A DNA stretch of 64,000 nt, taken from positions 1 through 64,000 of the forward strand of contig NZ_JAJIRO010000006.1 in the NCBI RefSeq assembly GCF_025717535.1, read 5' to 3'. The position numbers and the translations under genes were made by a program. Every line of letters starts with the position of its first letter. Position 1 is the first letter of the stretch. The DNA is from Paucibacter sp. Y2R2-4 (GTDB taxonomy: Bacteria; Pseudomonadota; Gammaproteobacteria; Burkholderiales; Burkholderiaceae_C). Positions 43,260 to 52,129 of the stretch are shown here, one piece after another. The notes under the pieces are model-generated. The model searched no databases. It worked only from the letters and a program-made list of their open reading frames with translations, and was not told the origin of the DNA.

Positions 43260-43282
43260 CCCGTGCCAACTTCGGCGGGCTC

Positions 43283-44494
43283 TTAGCCTTCCAGGCCCGG
43301 TTCGGCTTGCAGGCGGCCAAAGCCGCCGCGCTTGGCCTCGTAAAGCGCCGTCTCGGCGCGGCGCATCAAGTCGTCGATATTGCGATCGCCATGGCGCAGC
43401 TTGGCCCAGCCGGCGCTGAAGTTCAGTGCGAAACCCAACTCCGCCGGCGCCCGCAGTGCCAGCGCTTCTCGCATGCGCAGGTCCATGGCCTGCGGCCCTT
43501 CCGCCTCACAGCGGGCCATCAGCAAGCCGAATTGCTCCCGGTTGACTCGCCCCGCCAGATCGCCCAATCGCATCTGCGCTTGGACGCAGCTGGCAAACAG
43601 GGCGGTGGCGCGCTCTGCGGCTTGCGGTCCATGCTCGTGAGTGATGGTCTTGATGTCATCGATTTCGAGCAGCAGCATGGCCAGCGCCTCTTGGTGGCGC
43701 CGCGCCATCGAGATCATGTCCACCGAGCGTGCCGAAAAGGCGCGGCTGTCGGGCAGGCCGGTCAAACCATCGGTCTGCGCCAGGCGGGCCAGTTCTGATT
43801 CGGTCTCGGCGCGCCAGGCCAACACCAGGGCCAAGACAGCCAGGCTCAGGCCCCAGTAGGCGGCCAGGCCGAGGGCGGTGTTGATGGCATCGTCTGACAG
43901 CAAGCTGGGCAAGTCTTTGGCATAAGCGCCCCAGACGCCGCGCAGCAGGCAGGCCAGCAGCGCCGGCAAAATAGCCAGCAGCAACATCAGCCGCCAATGG
44001 CGGTTGTCGACGCCCGGCACGGTGTTGGGCAAGGCTTCTGAGAGTGCTCGCGGCGCAGCCTCCGGCTTGGGCGACGCCATCAGGCCAATCGCCAACATAC
44101 CCAGTTGCAAAGCCAACCAGAACTGCGCCCAGGCGACGCGAAAACTCGCATCCTCAAACTGCAGACCGTAGACCAACGGCATCAGGGCCGGCGCCAACAG
44201 GGCCAAAGCGCGGCCGGGCCTGGGCTTCAGCCACAGACGCAAGCTCCACCACAAGGCGCTGAGGCTGGCGCTGAAGGCCAGCATGGCCAGGGTTTGCCAC
44301 AACCTGGCGCTGCCGGAGCCTGCCGTCGCCAAGGCCAACCAGCCCAGCGCTTGCAAGCCCATGAAGGCCTGCGCCCAGCGCGTCGCCGGGCTGGGGCGCA
44401 AGCCCATCAGCAAGAGCATGAGCAGGCTGGACGAGAGCGTCTGCACCAGCAGCAGATTGAACAGGGTCGGGTTGTCGAAGTGCATATTGGCCAT
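43283..44494 (-). CDS. membrane GGDEF protein with degenerate active site
   Basis: This 403-residue product has about seven TM segments (residues 12-230) and a C-terminal GGDEF-fold domain (about 240-400). The catalytic GG(D/E)EF is replaced by NREQF (GRVNREQFGLL), so cyclase activity is unlikely. An RxxD motif (RLGD) is retained exactly five residues before it, as at an I-site, so the domain may bind c-di-GMP as a receptor. The start codon overlaps the left copy of the 14-bp direct repeat of the mobile element. The ancestral upstream neighbour was amn. Confidence 0.85.
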   Translation of the reverse strand: MANMHFDNPTLFNLLLVQTLSSSLLMLLLMGLRPSPATRWAQAFMGLQALGWLALATAGSGSARLWQTLAMLAFSASLSALWWSLRLWLKPRPGRALALLAPALMPLVYGLQFEDASFRVAWAQFWLALQLGMLAIGLMASPKPEAAPRALSEALPNTVPGVDNRHWRLMLLLAILPALLACLLRGVWGAYAKDLPSLLSDDAINTALGLAAYWGLSLAVLALVLAWRAETESELARLAQTDGLTGLPDSRAFSARSVDMISMARRHQEALAMLLLEIDDIKTITHEHGPQAAERATALFASCVQAQMRLGDLAGRVNREQFGLLMARCEAEGPQAMDLRMREALALRAPAELGFALNFSAGWAKLRHGDRNIDDLMRRAETALYEAKRGGFGRLQAEPGLEG

Positions 44495-44506
44495 TCTCTA
44501 CCGGAA
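44493..44506. repeat. attL, 14-bp direct repeat
   Basis: ATTCTCTACCGGAA, exactly matching 50456-50469. It contains AT of the start codon and the putative ribosome-binding segment (GGTAGAGA on the minus strand) of the GGDEF-fold gene. Confidence 0.85.
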
Positions 44507-44792
44507 TAAGTGCAGCGGCGCTTTGATCCGATGGAATCGTGGTTCTTTGTTCTTGCTGCCCTATTTACCCCAGTCTTTGCCCCAGTCAAAGGCGACGGCT
44601 AGGACTACGTAATGGGCAGTGCGTAGGGCCACTCTACCTGACCATGAGATGACTTGGGGCGGCTACACATGGTTGCCGCCAGAGGTATACCGGTCTGGGC
44701 GTGTCGAGGCGGTCGGCTCAAAGTCACCCCCCATCACACAACCAATGAGGAACCAAGTGATTCATCAGCTAGATAACGGAAATGCAGGCGCC
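44507..44792. other. left-end non-coding region of the element (286 bp)
   Basis: No convincing gene here. It contains short repeats around CCCCAGTC (44569-44587) and CTTTG/CAAAG half-sites; integrase arm or regulator sites are plausible but not demonstrated. Confidence 0.35.
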
Positions 44793-45059
44793 ATGAAGAC
44801 ACGCGCCCCAAGCTTGAGCCGTCCCGCTCGCAAGAGCCCCCGTCAAAGAGCCCAGCCGGTAGATTTGCTTGACTCTGACTTTGCATTGCTCGGTATGGCT
44901 TCGGTGGTCGAGTTCACCGGCTTTTCACGGGCGACCATTTACAGGTACATCAAGGAGGGTCAATTTCCCTCCCCCTGCAAGATCGGTCAATGGGCTTCGC
45001 GCTGGAAGGCTGGAGAAGTTCGCGCATGGCTTGAGGCTCAGAAAGGCGGTGCGCAATGA
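44793..45059 (+). CDS. AlpA-family excisionase/regulator
   Basis: The product has 88 residues from the ATG at 44793 (GCAGG about 4-8 nt upstream). Upstream in-frame ATGs at 44745 and 44619 exist but have no ribosome site. The AlpA-type MerR-like HTH is clear: LLGMASVVEFTGFSRATIYRYIKEGQFPSPCKIG, then SRWKAGEVRAWLEA. AlpA proteins control integrase genes and excision in P4-type elements. It overlaps the next gene by ATGA. Confidence 0.88.
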   Translation: MKTRAPSLSRPARKSPRQRAQPVDLLDSDFALLGMASVVEFTGFSRATIYRYIKEGQFPSPCKIGQWASRWKAGEVRAWLEAQKGGAQ

Positions 45060-45478
45060 GCCGGCGCAGCGGAGGCGTCAAGCGAGTCTCGGCCATGCGT
45101 GACTCTCGCGCCAAGATGGTTGCCCGCCAGCGTCGAAAAGAGCAAAGCCAGCCGGCGCCAGTTATAGCGACAGCGCCAGAGCGGATCGCTTTTCTGCACA
45201 GGCTGTATGACCGCCTTCCAGGGGTCGAACTAGAAACGCAAGAGCAGCGCCTATTGCTGGCGCTGATGGCCGGGCCATTGACCACAAGAGAGGCCTACAA
45301 GCATCTGGACATGGCCGATGTAACCGCAAGGGTGAGAAACCTACGCAAACAGGGGTACCAAATCGAAACCACCTGGGTTCGGCAGTATGGGGATCGGGGC
45401 GCGTTGCATCGCTTCGGCCAATACTCCCTGACGGTGGCGGCCGATGAAATGCCAGGGGGCGAGAAGGGGGCGCCGTGA
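45056..45478 (+). CDS. winged-helix DNA-binding protein
   Basis: The 140-residue product has a basic N-terminus (about 1-35) and a winged-helix domain (about 55-130): TQEQRLLLALMAGPLTTREAYKHLDMADVTARVRNLRKQGYQIETTWV, typical of the HTH_39 group found on phages and elements. It overlaps the AlpA gene (ATGA) and the relaxase gene (GTGA), so the three form one translationally linked unit. Possible roles are regulating mobilization or binding repeat sites; not demonstrated. Confidence 0.75.
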   Translation: MSRRSGGVKRVSAMRDSRAKMVARQRRKEQSQPAPVIATAPERIAFLHRLYDRLPGVELETQEQRLLLALMAGPLTTREAYKHLDMADVTARVRNLRKQGYQIETTWVRQYGDRGALHRFGQYSLTVAADEMPGGEKGAP

Positions 45479-47076
45479 AGGGAGGCAAGGCAAGGGCCAA
45501 GGGCGCGGGGGGTGTTGAGTGTTTCCTCAATATCTACAAACTCAACTCCAAGAAAAAGGGGCCAAGGGCTATCTTCAAGGCGGCGCAGCATAACCTTCGC
45601 TCAAACCCTGCCGAGTACGGGAGGCGGGGGAACATTGATCCGGATCGCATTTGTTTGAATGAGGTCTTGATTGGCCCTGACAAGCCAGAGGAGGTTGAAG
45701 CGCAGGCTCAGCAGAGGATGGATGAGCTAGGCATCAAGCCGCGAGCGGGCGCCGTCCTCGCCATTGAACTTTTGTTCAGTCTGCCGGCTGGGCATGGGCT
45801 GAATGACCGTGATGTGTTCATGGCCTGCGTGGAATGGGCCGGGCGTCAATTCGGCGGGCCTGAAAACATTCTCAGCGCCGTGGTGCATTTGGATGAGGCC
45901 ACGCCACATTGTCACGCTCTAATTCTCCCGATTCTTGAGGGGCGGCTAAATGCCTCTGAATTGGTGGGCTACAAAAAGGAAGTTAGCGAACGCCGGAACA
46001 ACTTTTATGAAGAGCTAGGCAAGAGCCACGGGCTGAAGAAGCCACGGAGCGAGAAGCTTTCAGGGGAGGACATTGCAAGGGGCGGCGGCCAAGTCATCGC
46101 GCACATGGAAAAAAGCGGCGATGCGGCCACCAATAGCGCAGCATGGGAGGCAATCAAGGCTGTGATTCTGCGCAACCCTCAGCCCTTCATGGAGTGTTTG
46201 GGCTTGGAGCCTCTTGCAAAGCCGAGCCGGGACTTCATCCAGATCATGACAGGGACAGGGTGCAAAACACTGGAGGACAAACAACTCTATAGAGGAAGCG
46301 AGAACATCTATAGAGGAAGCCAGAAGCTCTATAGAGAAACGAGCGAGCCATGCGTAGGGGGCGAGGAAATCTATAGAGGAGCGGGAAAAGTGCTTCCTCT
46401 ATCTTGTGTAGAGGAAGGCTTTCAATCCCTCCAATCCGGCCCCCTCCCTGAGTCGCAGCAGCGCGATGCAGAAGAGCGGCAGGCGGCTACCCAGGGGCAA
46501 GGGCTAGCCGTGCAATCGGTGGACGCTGACGGGGTGATTGAGTTCGTCGCTGCCACGGATGGCGCCGAGCCTGCCGGCAACTCTTGCGGCGCAGTGGTCA
46601 TACCAGAGCTTCAGCAGCAGGGCCAGCCTATCGGCCATGTCGTGTCGCCTGGGTCGGCATCAGGGGCAGGGCAGCTAGACGGCCAAGACCTAACGCAGAT
46701 GGTTTTTGATAGTTGCGACGAGGCTGTAGGGGCAAGACGGGCGGCGGGCAAGGTGCGGCAACTGTGGTTGTATGGCCCTTTTGAATCGGGGCTAGCTGGG
46801 TGGAGGCTGATTGACCGCCCAGCCAATCCGGCCGAAGTCGCGGATAGCCTGATCTTGGCAGCCAAGGGTGAGGGCAAGTCATGCGGCGGGCTTAGAGGGG
46901 ATGCCGCTGTTGATCGCGTTGACGATTGCCTGCAGCCCTACGAAGCTGCCCCCGGCTGCTGGCGCTACAAGCTGCTGCGCGATGTTGCCCTAGGCCCTGC
47001 CGTGGGCCTATCGAGGGAACAGCGCAGGCGGGTCATGAAGGCCTGGAAGAAGGCCGGCGCATGGGATCGGGTGTGA
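45475..47076 (+). CDS. MobV-type (Pre/Mob) relaxase
   Basis: The product has 533 residues from the GTG at 45475, overlapping the previous gene. The MobV N-terminal domain has the HNLR...GNIDPDRICLNEV segment and the metal-binding triad HLDEATPHCHALILPI (residues about 141-156), matching the H-x-D-E-x-T-P-H-x-H motif. The relaxase domain covers about 1-270. A Tyr-Arg-Gly repeat stretch (about 271-315) encoded by TCTATAGAGGAAGC DNA repeats follows. The C-terminal half is unlike known MobV proteins that I recognise and may be a fused accessory domain. It nicks oriT and pilots the element during transfer with a helper system. Confidence 0.85.
   Translation: MKGGKARAKGAGGVECFLNIYKLNSKKKGPRAIFKAAQHNLRSNPAEYGRRGNIDPDRICLNEVLIGPDKPEEVEAQAQQRMDELGIKPRAGAVLAIELLFSLPAGHGLNDRDVFMACVEWAGRQFGGPENILSAVVHLDEATPHCHALILPILEGRLNASELVGYKKEVSERRNNFYEELGKSHGLKKPRSEKLSGEDIARGGGQVIAHMEKSGDAATNSAAWEAIKAVILRNPQPFMECLGLEPLAKPSRDFIQIMTGTGCKTLEDKQLYRGSENIYRGSQKLYRETSEPCVGGEEIYRGAGKVLPLSCVEEGFQSLQSGPLPESQQRDAEERQAATQGQGLAVQSVDADGVIEFVAATDGAEPAGNSCGAVVIPELQQQGQPIGHVVSPGSASGAGQLDGQDLTQMVFDSCDEAVGARRAAGKVRQLWLYGPFESGLAGWRLIDRPANPAEVADSLILAAKGEGKSCGGLRGDAAVDRVDDCLQPYEAAPGCWRYKLLRDVALGPAVGLSREQRRRVMKAWKKAGAWDRV
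46285..46417. repeat. TCTATAGAGGAAGC-type repeats within the relaxase gene
   Basis: Four copies of TCTATAGA (core starts 46286, 46307, 46328, 46370), two inside a perfect CTCTATAGAG palindrome (46285-46294, 46327-46336), are followed by a 9-bp inverted repeat CTTCCTCTA/TAGAGGAAG (46393-46401, 46409-46417). In frame they encode a Leu/Ile-Tyr-Arg-Gly-Ser repeat. Confidence 0.7.
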
Positions 47077-47091
47077 CTAAGGCTTGGCGAT

Positions 47092-47257
47092 CAACTACGA
47101 GGCTTCCGTAGTTGTGCAGCAGCTGGGCTGACTTCTCAGCCGATCTGCCGGACAGCTACGGGCGGGGTTCAATGGGCTTGCTAAAAACTGAGCAGACCCA
47201 AGTCGCTGGAGGAAGTCTTGGCGATAGGGCGCTATAGGTCTTCCACAGTCTGTGGAA
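47092..47257. repeat. cluster of three perfect hairpins after the relaxase gene
   Basis: CAACTACG/CGTAGTTG (47092-47099, 47107-47114), GGCTGA/TCAGCC (47126-47131, 47136-47141) and TTCCACAG/CTGTGGAA (47241-47248, 47250-47257) lie in a 212-bp non-coding stretch. No T tracts are present, so the arrangement suits an oriT or protein-bound site more than a terminator. Confidence 0.5.
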
Positions 47258-47288
47258 AAGGCCGACATCAATCCAAAACTGGACAGGT

Positions 47289-47684
47289 CTACCGGGCGGA
47301 TAGAAACGGGCCGGCCACACGGCGGGCGAACCTCTCTTGCGCCTCGGGGTCGGTGTCGAGCAGCGCCAGCGACTCAATGCCCGCAAGGCTTAGGGCAGCG
47401 CTGCGGGTCAGTTCTTCGGGGCTTGGGCGCATCAGCCGCTTGGCGGCATCGGAAAGCCTCTCGGGGTGATTCGCAGCCATCCAAAGGGGGAAGGGTTCGC
47501 CCATCATCAAAAGCGCAGCCTCGGCCTTTTCGTGCCCTCTCAGGCATACACAAGGGCGCAGGTTTGCAAACCATGCATTGATAGCGGCGGTGTCGGGGCG
47601 GCTGGCCGGCTGGCCTAGTAAACGTGTCGGTGTCATGGTCTGGTCAAGTTCGGCGAGATTGCCGGCTGGCAGTCTCAGTGCCAT
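47289..47684 (-). CDS. hypothetical cargo protein of the element
   Basis: This 131-residue product is on the opposite strand to the relaxase unit. It is helical and hydrophilic with conserved-looking segments: DTAAINAWFANLRPCVCLRGHEKAEAALLMMGEPFPLWMAAN, HPERLSDAAKRLMRPS and QERFARRVAGPF. No TM, signal peptide or named family is recognised. The coding-like composition supports it; ATG at 47636 is an alternative start. Function is unknown. Confidence 0.55.
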   Translation of the reverse strand: MALRLPAGNLAELDQTMTPTRLLGQPASRPDTAAINAWFANLRPCVCLRGHEKAEAALLMMGEPFPLWMAANHPERLSDAAKRLMRPSPEELTRSAALSLAGIESLALLDTDPEAQERFARRVAGPFLSAR

Positions 47685-47817
47685 TGCCCGGCCCCAAACT
47701 TTGACCCTGTGCGGAACATGGCTACCGCGCAGATAGACGGGCGAATAGCGACATCCTAAAAGTTGGCCTTTTTTGCTAACTATTAAGATGGACGCATTTT
47801 TCTAAGGGTCAATCTTG

Positions 47818-48075
47818 ATGTCGCCTATCGGATTCGCTTTCATGAGTTTCAGCACTTGCATTGTTCCCGTTGCAATTGCCCTCTCTTCTGTATGGAAGTC
47901 GGGCTTTGGTGCCGCAGACGACATTCATGCGACTCACTCGGGGAATCGTGTTTCGTCAGAGGCGAAGGGGAAAGCAATGGTGGGCTGCAAGAAAACCAAC
48001 TGGGTTACTGGGCTGTTGCTCGCGTATCTCTCTGCGATTCACTATGTGCTCTATTGCGCGGCGATAGGCAATTGA
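47818..48075 (+). CDS. two-TM membrane protein beside the deacetylase
   Basis: This 85-residue product starts at 47818, with AAGGG about 10 nt upstream. Two hydrophobic segments (FSTCIVPVAIALSSVW, about 12-27; TGLLLAYLSAIHYVLYCAAI, about 64-83) flank a polar loop of some 35 residues with one His pair-like segment (DDIHATHSG). No family is recognised. The deacetylase starts 61 bp downstream on the same strand, so the two may be an operon and a functional pair. Confidence 0.55.
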   Translation: MSPIGFAFMSFSTCIVPVAIALSSVWKSGFGAADDIHATHSGNRVSSEAKGKAMVGCKKTNWVTGLLLAYLSAIHYVLYCAAIGN

Positions 48076-48136
48076 TTCATTCAGTCTCCAAAGCCAATGG
48101 GGCGATTCCCAAGAAATCAAACAAGAGGTGTTGCAG

Positions 48137-49006
48137 ATGATCCCAGTTTTCTATCGGCCTGAAATGTCGGCCAACACCAAGAGCTTCAGCCCCAGCAGCA
48201 ACAAGCCAGCGCTTGCCGTGGCCGATTGGATCAAGTGCGGCCTGAGCGTCGATGTCGTGAGTTTCGACCCGGCGACTGAAGAGCAGGTGAAGCGAGCACA
48301 TAGCCCAGCGTATGTTGATGGAATCATGCGCTGTGAGTTGCCCAATGGCTTTGGCAATCGAAGTCGGGAGGTTGCCGACTCGCTGCCTTACACCGTGGGC
48401 AGCATGGTCGCTGCAGCTACTCATGCGCTTGAGCATGGCGGCATTGCTTGCTCTCCGTCGAGCGGCTTCCACCATGCGAGGTATGCGGAGGCGGGGGACT
48501 ACTGCACTTTCAATGGCCTGATGGTTGCCGCGCTGGAAGTCATGGCGCAGAAGCCCGGCGCCAGGATCGCCATTGTGGATTTCGATATGCACTACGGGGA
48601 CGGAACCGACGATATCCGCAAGCGCCTGGGGCTGCAGAAAAGCATCTGCCACATCCGCGCCGGCCTTGAGGTTGACGAGGGAATGGGGCGCTATTTCATG
48701 TCTAGCATGACCGACATGCTCCTATCGACGCGGGACTACTTTGGCCGGGCGCCTGACCTTGTGCTGTACCAAGCCGGCGCCGATCAGCACATCAAAGACC
48801 CGCTTGGCGGCTTGTTGACTACCGCTGAAATGAAGCGCAGGGACGAATACGTTCTCCAGTCCTACGCACGGTGGGGTGTTCCGGTTGCGTTCAATCTGGC
48901 AGGCGGCTACCAGACGGACGAGGCCGGAACAATCGAGCCAGTGCTGAAGTTGCACCGGCAAACTATGGAAGAAGCCACCAGGGCGCAAGGCTTCTATAGG
49001 CAATAG
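48137..49006 (+). CDS. histone-deacetylase-fold metal-dependent deacylase
   Basis: The product has 289 residues from the ATG at 48137, with AGAGG about 8 nt upstream. It has the arginase-deacetylase fold with all catalytic residues present: His112-His113 (SSGFHHARYAEAG), zinc ligands Asp150 and His152 (VDFDMHYGDGT), Asp216 (YQAGADQHIKDPLGG) and catalytic Tyr258 (LAGGYQ). It should remove acyl groups from lysines, polyamines or small amides. The HHA segment resembles class I more than the PPGHHA acetoin-type proteins. No acetyltransferase gene lies on the element. It is cargo of a mobile element; the substrate is unknown. Confidence 0.88.
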   Translation: MIPVFYRPEMSANTKSFSPSSNKPALAVADWIKCGLSVDVVSFDPATEEQVKRAHSPAYVDGIMRCELPNGFGNRSREVADSLPYTVGSMVAAATHALEHGGIACSPSSGFHHARYAEAGDYCTFNGLMVAALEVMAQKPGARIAIVDFDMHYGDGTDDIRKRLGLQKSICHIRAGLEVDEGMGRYFMSSMTDMLLSTRDYFGRAPDLVLYQAGADQHIKDPLGGLLTTAEMKRRDEYVLQSYARWGVPVAFNLAGGYQTDEAGTIEPVLKLHRQTMEEATRAQGFYRQ

Positions 49007-49018
49007 CTTGCCTGCAGC

Positions 49019-50281
49019 TTAGGCCGCTTTGAAAGGCAGCACTTGGGCGCCTGCTTTGAGCTTATCCAAATAGTCGGCCCATGCCTGCATAGCGGCCACC
49101 CGCTCAGGCATGTACTGCGCCCGGTCATAAGCTGACCCAAGAGGCCCGGCCTTTGCGTGGGCAAGTTGGGCTTCGATTGCCTCGGGGTTGATATTCAGTT
49201 GCTCAACCATCATTGTGCGGGCCATTGCACGAAAGCCGTGCGCAGTCATTTGGCTGTTCGTGTACCCCATACCTCGAAGAGCGTTGTTCATGGTCATGCG
49301 GCCCATCGACGTACCGCGCTTTAGCTTGCTTTGAAACACATACTTACCGCTGCCCGAAAGTGGCCCTAAGCCCTTCAGAATGTCTACCGCCTGGGTAGAA
49401 AGTGGAACTAGGTGGGGCCGCGTACGTTCGGCCTTCTGCTTTTTCGTCCCCTTCATGTGCTCAGGCGGGATTGAGATCATTGCCTTTTCAAGATCGACCC
49501 AAGCCCATTCCATTCCTGTGATGTTCGCCGGGCGTTGAAAGGTCAATGCCGACAGCTTCAAAGCTGCTCGGGTAAATGGATGTGCATTGCAAGCGTCAAT
49601 CTTCCGCATCAAGTCGCCGGCCTGCACTGGGTCAAGGATCGCGGCGTGGCTTTTGCCCTGATGTGATTGCAGGGCATCCTTGAGTTGGCTGGCAGGGTTA
49701 AAGGCGCATCGGTCTGTCTGCACAGCGAGGCGGAAAACTTGGTCTGCAGACTCTTTCAAGTTCTGCAAAACACTCAGATAGCCTGACTCTTCAACGGGTC
49801 TCAACACATCCAACAATAGCCGCACGTTAATGGCTGCAATAGGCATTGTTCCAAGCCGGGGGAGCAGGTACTTTTCTACAGCCTTAAGCCATTGCTTGCC
49901 ATACCTGTCGCTCCATTGGCTCGCCTTCTTTGCATGGAACTCGCGGGCGATGGCGCCGAAGGTGTTTGCGCTTCGCCGGCCGGATTCATCCTTATCAAGC
50001 TGGCGCTGCTGTATTGGGTCGGCCCCAGCTTTCAGCTTAAGCCTCTCCGAGTCACGGGCGGCTCGCGCATCTTTGAGGCTTGTTTCGACGGTTTTGCTGC
50101 CAGCCCGGCAGTAGTGGCCCAGGGCAATCACTCGCTCTTTGCCAAGCCGGGTGTAGCGATAGAACCAGCGCTTGGAGCCATTTGGCGTAGCTTCCAAGAA
50201 GAGTCCATCGGAGTCTGCAAGACGGGTCTTTGTCTTGTTTGCCGGGCATGAAAAGTTCTTTAGCTGTAGTTCGGTGAGCAT
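49019..50281 (-). CDS. P4-type tyrosine integrase
   Basis: The product has 420 residues from the ATG at 50281 (an in-frame ATG at 50311 adds 10). An N-terminal DUF4102 domain (about 1-85; LTELQLKNFSC, TRLADSDGLFLEATPNGSKRWFYRYT) precedes a SAM-like core-binding domain (about 105-205) and the catalytic domain (about 220-400). The catalytic residues are visible: Arg in FQRPANITGMEW, His and Arg in TAHGFRAMARTM, His in QLAHAKAG and Tyr in RAQYMPER. It should catalyse integration at the 14-bp att core. It is positioned at the element's right end beside attR. Confidence 0.95.
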   Translation of the reverse strand: MLTELQLKNFSCPANKTKTRLADSDGLFLEATPNGSKRWFYRYTRLGKERVIALGHYCRAGSKTVETSLKDARAARDSERLKLKAGADPIQQRQLDKDESGRRSANTFGAIAREFHAKKASQWSDRYGKQWLKAVEKYLLPRLGTMPIAAINVRLLLDVLRPVEESGYLSVLQNLKESADQVFRLAVQTDRCAFNPASQLKDALQSHQGKSHAAILDPVQAGDLMRKIDACNAHPFTRAALKLSALTFQRPANITGMEWAWVDLEKAMISIPPEHMKGTKKQKAERTRPHLVPLSTQAVDILKGLGPLSGSGKYVFQSKLKRGTSMGRMTMNNALRGMGYTNSQMTAHGFRAMARTMMVEQLNINPEAIEAQLAHAKAGPLGSAYDRAQYMPERVAAMQAWADYLDKLKAGAQVLPFKAA

Positions 50282-50455
50282 GGCAGGGCTTTGGATGGTG
50301 TGGCGGTGCATTGTGCATTACCCCAGCCGTTACCCCCGTTTTGCCATGCGTTTCGATGAGTTGTGTTGCGCTGGCTTGATCCGGGTTTAATTTGTAAGTC
50401 GTTGATTTGTATGGGTTTGCTGCTCTTGTTGAGTTGATGTAAGCCGCCTTTGTGG
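50282..50455. other. right-end non-coding region of the element
   Basis: 174 bp without a gene between the integrase start and attR. It contains a repeated TTACCCC segment (50317 and 50332 area) that could be arm-type integrase sites; this is not demonstrated. Confidence 0.3.
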
Positions 50456-50469
50456 ATTCTCTACCGGAA
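50456..50469. repeat. attR, 14-bp direct repeat
   Basis: ATTCTCTACCGGAA, identical to 44493-44506. It lies one base from the stop codon of amn (50471-50473). Confidence 0.85.
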
Positions 50470-50470
50470 G

Positions 50471-51994
50471 CTATTGGAAGGCCACCTCGGCGAAGCTGCG
50501 TAGCTTGCGGCTGTGCAACTGGCTCAGCGAGCCCGAACGCAGCAACTCGACGGCGCGCAGACCAATGCGCAGATGTTGATCAACGCGGGCGCGGTAGAAC
50601 TGGTCGGCCATGCCGGGCAGCTTGATCTCGCCGTGCAGCGGCTTGTCGCTCACACACAGCAAAGTGCCATAGGGCACGCGGAAGCGAAAACCATTGGCGG
50701 CGATGGTGGCGCTTTCCATATCCAAGGCGATGGCGCGGCTCTGGCTGAAGCGGCGCTCGGGGCCGCCGTGGCGGTCATTTGGCAGCAGTTCCCAATTGCG
50801 GTTGTCGGTGGAGGCCACGGTGCCGGTGCGCAAGATGCGCTTCAACTCATAACCGCTGAGTTGCGTGACATCGGCGACAGCCTGCTCCAGCGCCAATTGA
50901 ATTTCAGCCAGAGGCGGAATCGGCACCCACAGCGGCAGGTCTTCGTCCAATACATGGTCCTCGCGCACATAGGCATGGGCCAGTACATAGTCGCCCAGCT
51001 GCTGGCTGTTGCGCAGGCCGGCGCAGTGGCCCAGCATCAACCAGGCATGCGGGCGCAGCACGGCGATGTGGTCGCTCATGGTCTTGGCATTGGCGGGGCC
51101 GACGCCGATATTGATCATGGTGATGCCGCTGCGGTCGCGCCTCACCAAGTGATAGGCCGGCATTTGCGGCAGCCGGGGCGGCGGCGCACCCAGCGCATCG
51201 TGGGGCTCGGGTGCGCAGCCGACGCGGCGGGTGAGCACATTGCCGGGCTCGACAAAGGCGATGCAGTCGTCCAACTCGCTGGGCCGAGCCGGGTCGGGCG
51301 CAGTGCTCATCAACTCGCGGCCCATGCGTACGAACTCGTCGATATAGAACTGGTAATTGGTGAACAAGACGAAGTTTTGAAAATGCTCGGCGCGGGTGCC
51401 GGTGTAGTGGCGCAGCCGGTGCAAGGAGTAGTCGACTCGTGGCGCGGTGAACAGTGAAAGTGGCTGCGGCGCGCCGGGGGCCAGGTCTTGCGTGCCGTTG
51501 GCAATGCCGTCGTCCATGGCGGCCAGGTCGGGCAGATCAAAGACCTCGCGCATGAGGCGGCGGCGCTCGGTGCTCAGCTGGCCTTCAATATGCTCTTGCT
51601 CGCCGATGGCGAAATGCAGTGGGATGGGCTGGTTGCTGCTGCCAATCTCCAGGCCCGAGCCCTGCGCGCCGTGGTTGGCCAAGAGCAATTCGAACTGGCG
51701 AAGGTCGTAGTCGGCGAACAGGTCGGGGCGGGTCAGCGTGGTTTCGAACACGCCGGCATCGGCCACAAAGCCGTAGGCTAGGCGAGAGTCAGGGCGCAGG
51801 CTGGTGCTGCTGCGCAGGCGCACAAAGGGGTAGCAAGCGCGCACCTTGTCCGGGAAGTCCTCTCCGGCTACGAAGCGCTGCAGCGCATCACGCAAATGCT
51901 GGAGGCTGGCGCTGTAAATCTGCTGCGCCTGGGCCAGCGCGGCGGCGGCCTCACGGAAGACGATAGGGGCAAAAAACGGTGGGCTGAAACTCAT
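50471..51994 (-). CDS. amn: AMP nucleosidase
   Basis: The product has 507 residues from the ATG at 51994, with AGGAG upstream. It hydrolyses AMP to adenine and ribose-5-phosphate, controlling adenylate pools. The N-terminal AMP nucleosidase domain (about 15-190; FREAAAALAQAQQIYSASLQHLRDALQRF) and the nucleoside-phosphorylase-like catalytic domain (about 270-490) are both present, with ITMINIGVGPANAKTMSDHIAVLRPHAWLMLGHCAGLR and AIALDMESATIAANGF. Length fits the E. coli enzyme. It probably once preceded the GGDEF-fold gene directly (see att sites). Confidence 0.96.
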   Translation of the reverse strand: MSFSPPFFAPIVFREAAAALAQAQQIYSASLQHLRDALQRFVAGEDFPDKVRACYPFVRLRSSTSLRPDSRLAYGFVADAGVFETTLTRPDLFADYDLRQFELLLANHGAQGSGLEIGSSNQPIPLHFAIGEQEHIEGQLSTERRRLMREVFDLPDLAAMDDGIANGTQDLAPGAPQPLSLFTAPRVDYSLHRLRHYTGTRAEHFQNFVLFTNYQFYIDEFVRMGRELMSTAPDPARPSELDDCIAFVEPGNVLTRRVGCAPEPHDALGAPPPRLPQMPAYHLVRRDRSGITMINIGVGPANAKTMSDHIAVLRPHAWLMLGHCAGLRNSQQLGDYVLAHAYVREDHVLDEDLPLWVPIPPLAEIQLALEQAVADVTQLSGYELKRILRTGTVASTDNRNWELLPNDRHGGPERRFSQSRAIALDMESATIAANGFRFRVPYGTLLCVSDKPLHGEIKLPGMADQFYRARVDQHLRIGLRAVELLRSGSLSQLHSRKLRSFAEVAFQ

Positions 51995-52129
51995 CGGCAA
52001 GGCTCCTCACTTTGACGCTGATTGTGGCGCGCCGGAACGAGGGGCAATGCAGAGACTGCGGTTTTGTTCCAGCTCGGTGCCTGAAACGGCTCTTCGGTTG
52101 ATGCTCTGACTCGCGCTTTGACTCGGCCC

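Follow-up and report, generated by a model that had tools for sequence, protein, structure and literature searches.

Gene content and boundaries of the element

The window analysed here comprises 64,000 nucleotides of Paucibacter sp. Y2R2-4 (contig NZ_JAJIRO010000006.1, positions 1 to 64,000). Within this window, a perfect 14-bp direct repeat, ATTCTCTACCGGAA, at 44493-44506 and 50456-50469, bounds a 5,963-bp insertion between the host gene amn and a gene for a GGDEF-domain protein. The insertion carries genes for an AlpA-family regulator, a winged helix-turn-helix protein, a MobV-type relaxase, an HDAC-like enzyme and a P4-type tyrosine integrase. By its content it is very probably a canonical integrative mobilizable element (IME), which would integrate by means of its integrase, arm-type sites and the 3′ end of amn, excise with the help of AlpA and be mobilized through MobV.

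Both repeat copies are read on the minus strand of the window. The distal copy gives the AT of the ATG start codon of the host GGDEF gene (43283-44494, minus strand; PF00990, 4.4e-22). The amn-proximal copy, which adjoins the integrase and is defined by the repeat match and the empty-site alignment, is separated by one base from the stop codon TAG (50473-50471) of amn, the gene for AMP nucleosidase (50471-52000, minus strand; TIGR01717, 610 bits). The 14-mer, which reads TTCCGGTAGAGAAT on the other strand, has no further copy on either strand of the 64-kb window and is absent from those 20 of the window's 54 repeat families that were displayed. When the 5.13-Mb genome of the host was searched with TTCCRGTAGAGAAT, the two element-end copies were the only matches.

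To describe the empty site, the genus was searched with Amn, which yielded 18 genomes, the host's own included. In the closest congener (G013; Amn 97% and GGDEF protein 89% identical) both genes are contiguous. In a blastn comparison with this locus (L096), positions 50456-52043 of the window align to 1757-172 and positions 43282-44506 to 2974-1744. The two flanks therefore overlap by exactly 14 bp on the empty site of the sister species, where the core reads TTCCCGTAGAGAAT, with one mismatch to that of the window. Because of this exact overlap, the insertion can be taken as real and not as a chance repeat. Among the remaining 16 genomes of the genus, nine have a GGDEF gene whose start is at most about 124 bp away from the end of amn, and five have no GGDEF match within 1.5 kb of amn; G017 shows no GGDEF match within the 197 bp covered, and the sequence of G011 ends inside amn. 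Thus, the original prediction of an integrative element with exact ends was confirmed by a search for the empty site in related genomes, as it had itself proposed. The insertion has its own integrase, flanking att repeats and an empty site, as expected of an IME. In the genome G221 (L172), the GGDEF homologue starts 1.2 kb into the stretch downstream of amn, compared to 116-268 bp in the 12 other stretches that have one, which makes another insertion between the two genes possible at that locus.

The integrase and its predicted arm-type sites

The integrase gene (49019-50311, minus strand) lies beside the right repeat copy, where a tyrosine integrase had been foreseen. Domain and PHROG matches, alignment and comparison with the integrase of phage P4 (P4 Int; 35% identical over 407 columns) assign it to the P4 type, with Arm-DNA-bind_3, Phage_int_M and catalytic domains. 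Its residues R260, H358, R361, H385 and Y395 (R-H-R-H-Y) are kept in all 31 aligned integrases. Matches at E<=1e-60 occur in 115 of 299 genomes of the bacterial family, own genome included, and matches at E<=1e-115 among 349 genomes of the order are confined to the own genome and G130. Genome contigs yielded four relatives of 34-39% identity plus one 24-residue match of 75%, and viral contigs one relative of 33%; among plasmids (734 records) and phages (297 records) every best place was below 60%.

Insertion sites were then examined for 30 fetched relatives (L002, L021-L049), a subset of all matches; several of these are near-copies, and therefore the 30 do not represent 30 independent events. 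In 29 of them the 3′ end of a tRNA or tmRNA gene lies 138-213 bp upstream of the integrase gene on the same strand, and in the remaining one (L038) the tRNA is 621 bp off. Relatives at about 50% identity use tRNA-Arg, -Gly, -His, -Ser or -Val. In the window, the amn stop lies 159 bp from the integrase start, a position comparable to that of the tRNA in the relatives, and ARAGORN finds no tRNA or tmRNA gene in the window. The element is thus not at the usual, though not obligatory, target of P4-type integrases, and a non-tRNA target is, on this comparison, unusual for the integrase group, in line with what had been claimed initially. The own genome also has a second P4-type integrase (L002; G000:C1:672677-673936), which adjoins the tmRNA gene.

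At both ends of the element, pairs of predicted arm-type sites were detected that had not been part of the original prediction. They consist of TTACCCC and TTGCCCC, 12 bp apart, at the left end (44565-44583, plus strand), and of TTACCCC twice, 12 bp apart, at the right end (50318-50336, plus strand). A 19-bp pair pattern derived from both of these copies matches the 64 kb at 44565 and 50318 only. The layout is similar to that of the P4 attP: in the P4 record (X51522), 12-bp arm repeats are annotated as adjacent pairs, one 53 bp ahead of the core and one 112 bp past it, with int beside the second pair and two further single repeats inside int. In P4, GGGGG runs precede the core by 75 and 63 bp and follow it by 114 and 126 bp; in the window, GGGG runs precede the core by 77 and 65 bp and follow it by 119 and 131 bp. 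Judged by sequence and spacing only, the core of the element is flanked on either side by paired 12-bp arm sites, with the integrase gene adjacent, and this apparent layout supports both the element ends and the P4-type assignment.

The arm-like motif GGGG(N)AA was also counted in the 30 non-independent relatives, on either strand of the 140 bp that end at integrase residue 11. The total is 110, compared to a mean of 12.8 and a maximum of 24 in shuffles; 25 of the 30 have two or more. To be set against this are the choice of the motif after the window had been inspected, the five relatives (L045-L049) with fewer than two motifs, in which other repeats were seen by eye, and eight single occurrences of the motif in the other 5.4 kb of the element.

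The 3′ end of amn as the probable target

The original prediction placed the attachment site in the spacer between amn and the ATG of the GGDEF gene. The core indeed lies there in the window and in G013; in the light of the genus comparison, the 3′ end of amn is the better description. In six of the 17 other genomes, TTCCAGTAGAGAAT spans the amn stop codon (TTC CAG TAG AGAAT), once per genome, and is identical to the 14-mer of the window at 13 of 14 positions (A for G). In the host (G000) and G013, amn ends as TTCCAATAG C TTCC[G/C]GTAGAGAATG, and the core comes to lie just after the stop, as though the gene end had been doubled.

Elements at gene 3′ ends usually carry in attP a copy of the target end and of the DNA downstream of it. 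The 13 bases of the element past the core were compared with the native DNA after amn in the six congeners: 12 of 13 match in G002 and four to nine in the other five, and 12 of 13 are reached at just one of 53,940 13-mer positions in those six loci. The attP thus appears, from these alignments, to carry a copy of the amn 3′ end and its downstream DNA. Because of the match in G002 and the core that spans the stop in six congeners, we infer that the actual target is the 3′ end of amn, to which the spacer location found in this host is secondary.

If instead the 14-bp target were a site of the intergenic spacer unrelated to the amn 3′ end, the position of the core directly after the amn stop in the window and G013, overlapping the GGDEF start codon, would be accounted for. 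Moreover, 11 of the 17 other genomes lack the exact core motif at amn: one base differs in G013, a 2-bp insertion gives TTCCAGTAGCCGAGAAT in G004 and G007, and the others diverge more or are cut. However, the stop-spanning 14-mer in the six congeners and the 12 matching bases in G002 run counter to a spacer site, and we regard it as improbable.

Besides these 11 genomes, other findings weigh against the main reading. The element itself was encountered only once. The nearest full-length relative of its integrase (54% identical) is sited at tRNA-Arg, and no second insertion of an integrase relative at amn was found. Of the 266 family genomes that have amn, 40 were searched in the stretch following the gene (tblastn, E<=0.01, with this integrase and gp1 of Burkholderia phage KS5; other integrase types were not sought), and neither query gave a match. 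In tblastn with Amn against the 30 fetched loci with their 1.5-kb flanks, the window's own amn alone matched. The search for the same integrase beside an amn stop, suggested together with the original prediction, hence returned no other case in the 40 genomes. The further proposal of a distinct attachment-site family is not supported so far, and, because no second amn-integrated relative was found in these loci and genomes, such a family is unproven.

The target is also not wholly new, as the published report on phage KS5, in the part drawn on here, gives integration at the amn 3′ end (PMC3091744; Lynch 2010). At the start of the KS5 record stand the final 11 codons of amn, followed by its stop codon. 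Two integrases that show no detectable similarity, that of KS5 and that of this element, thus use the same gene end. In a limited literature search, no paper connected amn with an IME.

Two further features of the core region were seen. The reversed core, GATTCTCTACCGGAA, resembles the GATTCTTGCCGGT repeat at tRNA-Arg of the locus L077, which might suggest tRNA mimicry, but its orientation relative to the integrase gene is opposite. In addition, the amn 3′ end of G000 and G013 seems partly duplicated (50456-50482 and L004; TTCCAATAG-C-TTCC[G/C]GTAG), possibly as a scar of an older insertion.

Altogether, integration may be pictured as follows. In the excised circle, the P4-type integrase would bind the paired arm sites on either side of the 14-bp core and bring about recombination between this core and its counterpart at the amn 3′ end. 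Such an insertion would leave amn intact, and the neighbouring GGDEF gene would regain its ATG, whose AT comes from the core. Excision would probably be turned on by AlpA; AlpA switches on excision in P4 and CP4-57 elements.

The putative mobilization module

The gene for the AlpA-family regulator and putative excisionase (44793-45059, plus strand) matches PF05930 at 5e-14 on a longer open reading frame (ORF), open from 44619 with an ATG at 44793, as well as PHROG excisionase families. It is followed by the genes for the winged helix-turn-helix protein (HTH_39; 45056-45478, plus strand; PF14090, 8.4e-16) and the MobV-type relaxase (45475-47076, plus strand). The linkage of these three genes by an ATGA overlap (45056-45059) and a GTGA overlap (45475-45478) was verified in the sequence, and the family matches agree with the gene identities given earlier. 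PADLOC returned two weak matches for AlpA and none for the remaining six proteins.

The relaxase matches PF01076 (Mob_Pre) at 4.5e-20, and its C-terminal half has no family matches. All 20 aligned sequences share residues H39, R42, H138, D140 and H145 of the HNxR and HxDE..PHxH motifs. Across the bacterial family, 20 of 299 genomes encode a MobV relative, the host's own among them. For comparison, 19 of the 21 non-own MobV places were taken at length: six of these loci have AlpA, six an integrase relative and four both. Among the seven scanned ORFs of the element no mating-pore gene was found. The element thus has its own relaxase with intact motifs and, among the scanned ORFs, no mating-pore genes, as is typical of an IME. 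MobV would nick an origin of transfer (oriT), and the circle would leave by way of the conjugation machine of another element. The earlier suggestion that AlpA, integrase and MobV together fit a mobilizable element holds for the gene content; its second half, the use of helper conjugation, is at present conjectural.

Several observations speak against a functional transfer. MobV stays below the cut-off of NCBIfam NF041497 (86.2 vs 100 bits), and is therefore filed as MobV-type and not as a curated member. No oriT could be assigned, though hairpins and palindromes are present in the element. A search of the host genome for two families of the type IV secretion system, VirB4 (PF03135) and VirD4 (PF02534), gave no match at E<=0.001, none of six PF02534 candidates passing; therefore, no helper is seen at present. 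No plasmid record spans 80% of MobV, the best 20 of 736 spanning parts of residues 15-287 only. Taken together, these points would fit a stranded genomic island that excises and reintegrates but cannot be mobilized, its relaxase being degenerate or without an oriT. On the other hand, the MobV motifs are intact, the frame is open and relatives recur in the family, some in small tRNA-bounded elements. We consider the stranded island possible but doubtful, and a mobilizable element the better explanation.

Candidate transfer sites were also detected. Within mobV lies an array of CTCTATAGAG-type palindromes (46283-46417, plus strand) with 21/21/42-bp spacing, plus inverted CTTCCTCTA/TAGAGGAAG, which goes beyond the original prediction. 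The sequence TCTATAGAG gives six matches in it on both strands vs 0.03 expected. The 19 MobV relatives show no such array, with at most two CTATAG each. To judge from its sequence, the array could be an oriT, an operator or an iteron-like site. Downstream of mobV, a 26-nt imperfect hairpin (47106-47161) and a TTCCACAG/CTGTGGAA palindrome (47241-47257) are candidates for a terminator or an oriT. Two small ORFs follow, one of 131 amino acids (47289-47684, minus strand) without family matches and one of 86 amino acids (47815-48075, plus strand) with nothing above family cut-offs.

Comparison with known systems

With phage P4 the element shares a homologous integrase and an attP in which 12-bp GGGG-containing arm pairs flank the core, with int by the second pair. 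The annotated P4 core, which we take to be the end of the tRNA gene leuX, ends in CACCA, whereas the core of this element is the amn 3′ end. The P4 genes for capsid size and replication have no counterpart in the scanned ORFs of the element. A phage satellite of the P4 or phage-inducible chromosomal island kind, carried by phage particles and retaining MobV as a relic, would likewise have a P4-type integrase, a P4-like attP and an AlpA-family protein, and its HDAC-like cargo would be one common to phages. Such a satellite is nevertheless very improbable here, as none of the seven scanned ORFs matches a capsid, packaging, primase or replication family above cut-off and a full relaxase ORF is present. 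In the case of KS5, which is P2-like, the target gene end is the same; KS5 is a phage, its integrase has no significant similarity to that of the element, and its copy of amn reaches further upstream.

Canonical IMEs with MobV, as given in the sections of a 2017 review drawn on here (PMC5704250), include Tn4451, Tn5520, Tn6215, IMESag-rpsI and ATE-1. Like the element in the window, they have their own recombinase and MobV relaxase and no mating apparatus; unlike it, their hosts are Firmicutes, Bacteroidetes and Actinobacteria. In these sections, no IME then described in Proteobacteria is canonical, and a Burkholderia glumae island with MobP and trb genes is tabulated; protein-gene 3′-end sites of IMEs are given as trmE, yicC and rpsI (PMC5704250).

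Closer counterparts exist in the same bacterial family. The loci L077, L086 and L094 also combine AlpA, MobV and an integrase (25-48% identical) in compact elements, but their boundaries are repeats of 13-16 bp derived from the 3′ ends of tRNA-Arg, -Ser and -Thr genes; among them, L086 alone has an HDAC-like gene. In a search for tRNA 3′-end repeats at five loci, L077, L094, L091 and L086 have repeats of 13-22 bp, 4.0 to 9.7 kb apart, and the HDAC locus L116 has none. From these repeats we conclude that small AlpA-MobV-integrase elements recur in the family.

The novelty accordingly lies in a known kind of element, an IME, with P4-family integration at an unusual target. It offers a compact and exactly delimited system in which to ask how a tRNA-targeting integrase family changes its target, since the ends, the arm-like pairs and the empty site are known and tRNA-using relatives at about 50% identity are available for comparison. 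It also represents what looks like a canonical MobV IME in a Burkholderiales host; the closest named matches of the host's Amn, in Comamonas (75.5%) and Burkholderia/Caballeronia (66-68%), agree with this placement. As a tentative extension, the element may be the first member encountered of a lineage of P4-type IMEs that shifted from tRNA genes to a protein-gene 3′ end, keeping the P4 arm layout and converging with an unrelated phage on amn, with the HDAC-like cargo as a mobile family traded with phages that would act in conflict with hosts or in nucleotide/polyamine chemistry and not in host metabolism.

The HDAC-like cargo

The presumed cargo, which the original prediction had not mentioned, is an HDAC-like metal-dependent amidohydrolase (48137-49006, plus strand; PF00850, 1.1e-31), whose ORF is open from a GTG at 48128 with the likely ATG at 48137. 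Its best PDB match is 9rje (3.2e-22). The metal ligands (D/H/D), the HH pair and the tyrosine are kept in 56 of 56 rows, in the motifs GFHHA, DFDMH (DxDxH), GAD and GGY, as expected of PF00850. An accessory role in mobile-element conflict or in metabolite deacylation is suggested with low confidence.

The gene is patchily distributed: at a threshold of E<=1e-40 it is found in ten of the 299 family genomes, counting the host's own. A relative of 48% identity lies within the AlpA-MobV element L086, one of 54-55% (L108) in a stretch where seven of ten scanned ORFs have PHROG matches, and one (L116) close to tRNA-Ser and an integrase. Further relatives of 33-48% occur in 45 IMG/VR loci and of 27-35% in seven annotated phage records. 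The enzyme family thus connects IMEs, prophages and phages. In the tree, 19 rows, the window's protein among them, form a set with full support in which mobile and viral copies stand beside others; the window's protein has a long branch of its own, and its placement inside the set is loose. The label 'chr' on seven rows of this tree has no full annotation behind it.

A more distant clade of the HDAC-like family was also observed. It comprises 37 rows of 33-42% identity to the window's protein, in the IMG/VR contigs L124, L128-L141 and L143-L164 (e.g. L157:8001-8804). The neighbourhood of this clade looks like a 2-aminoadenine-type cluster; a limited literature search found no paper linking HDAC with PurZ phages or such a cluster. 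Among 56 stretches, in which neighbour families were assigned from one representative each, the genes nearby include those for PurA/PurZ-like proteins (28 loci), DNA polymerase A (26), a YfbR-like HD protein that is presumably DatZ-like (27), dATP/dGTP pyrophosphohydrolase (26), an NrdR-like protein (29) and a large unknown protein (37).

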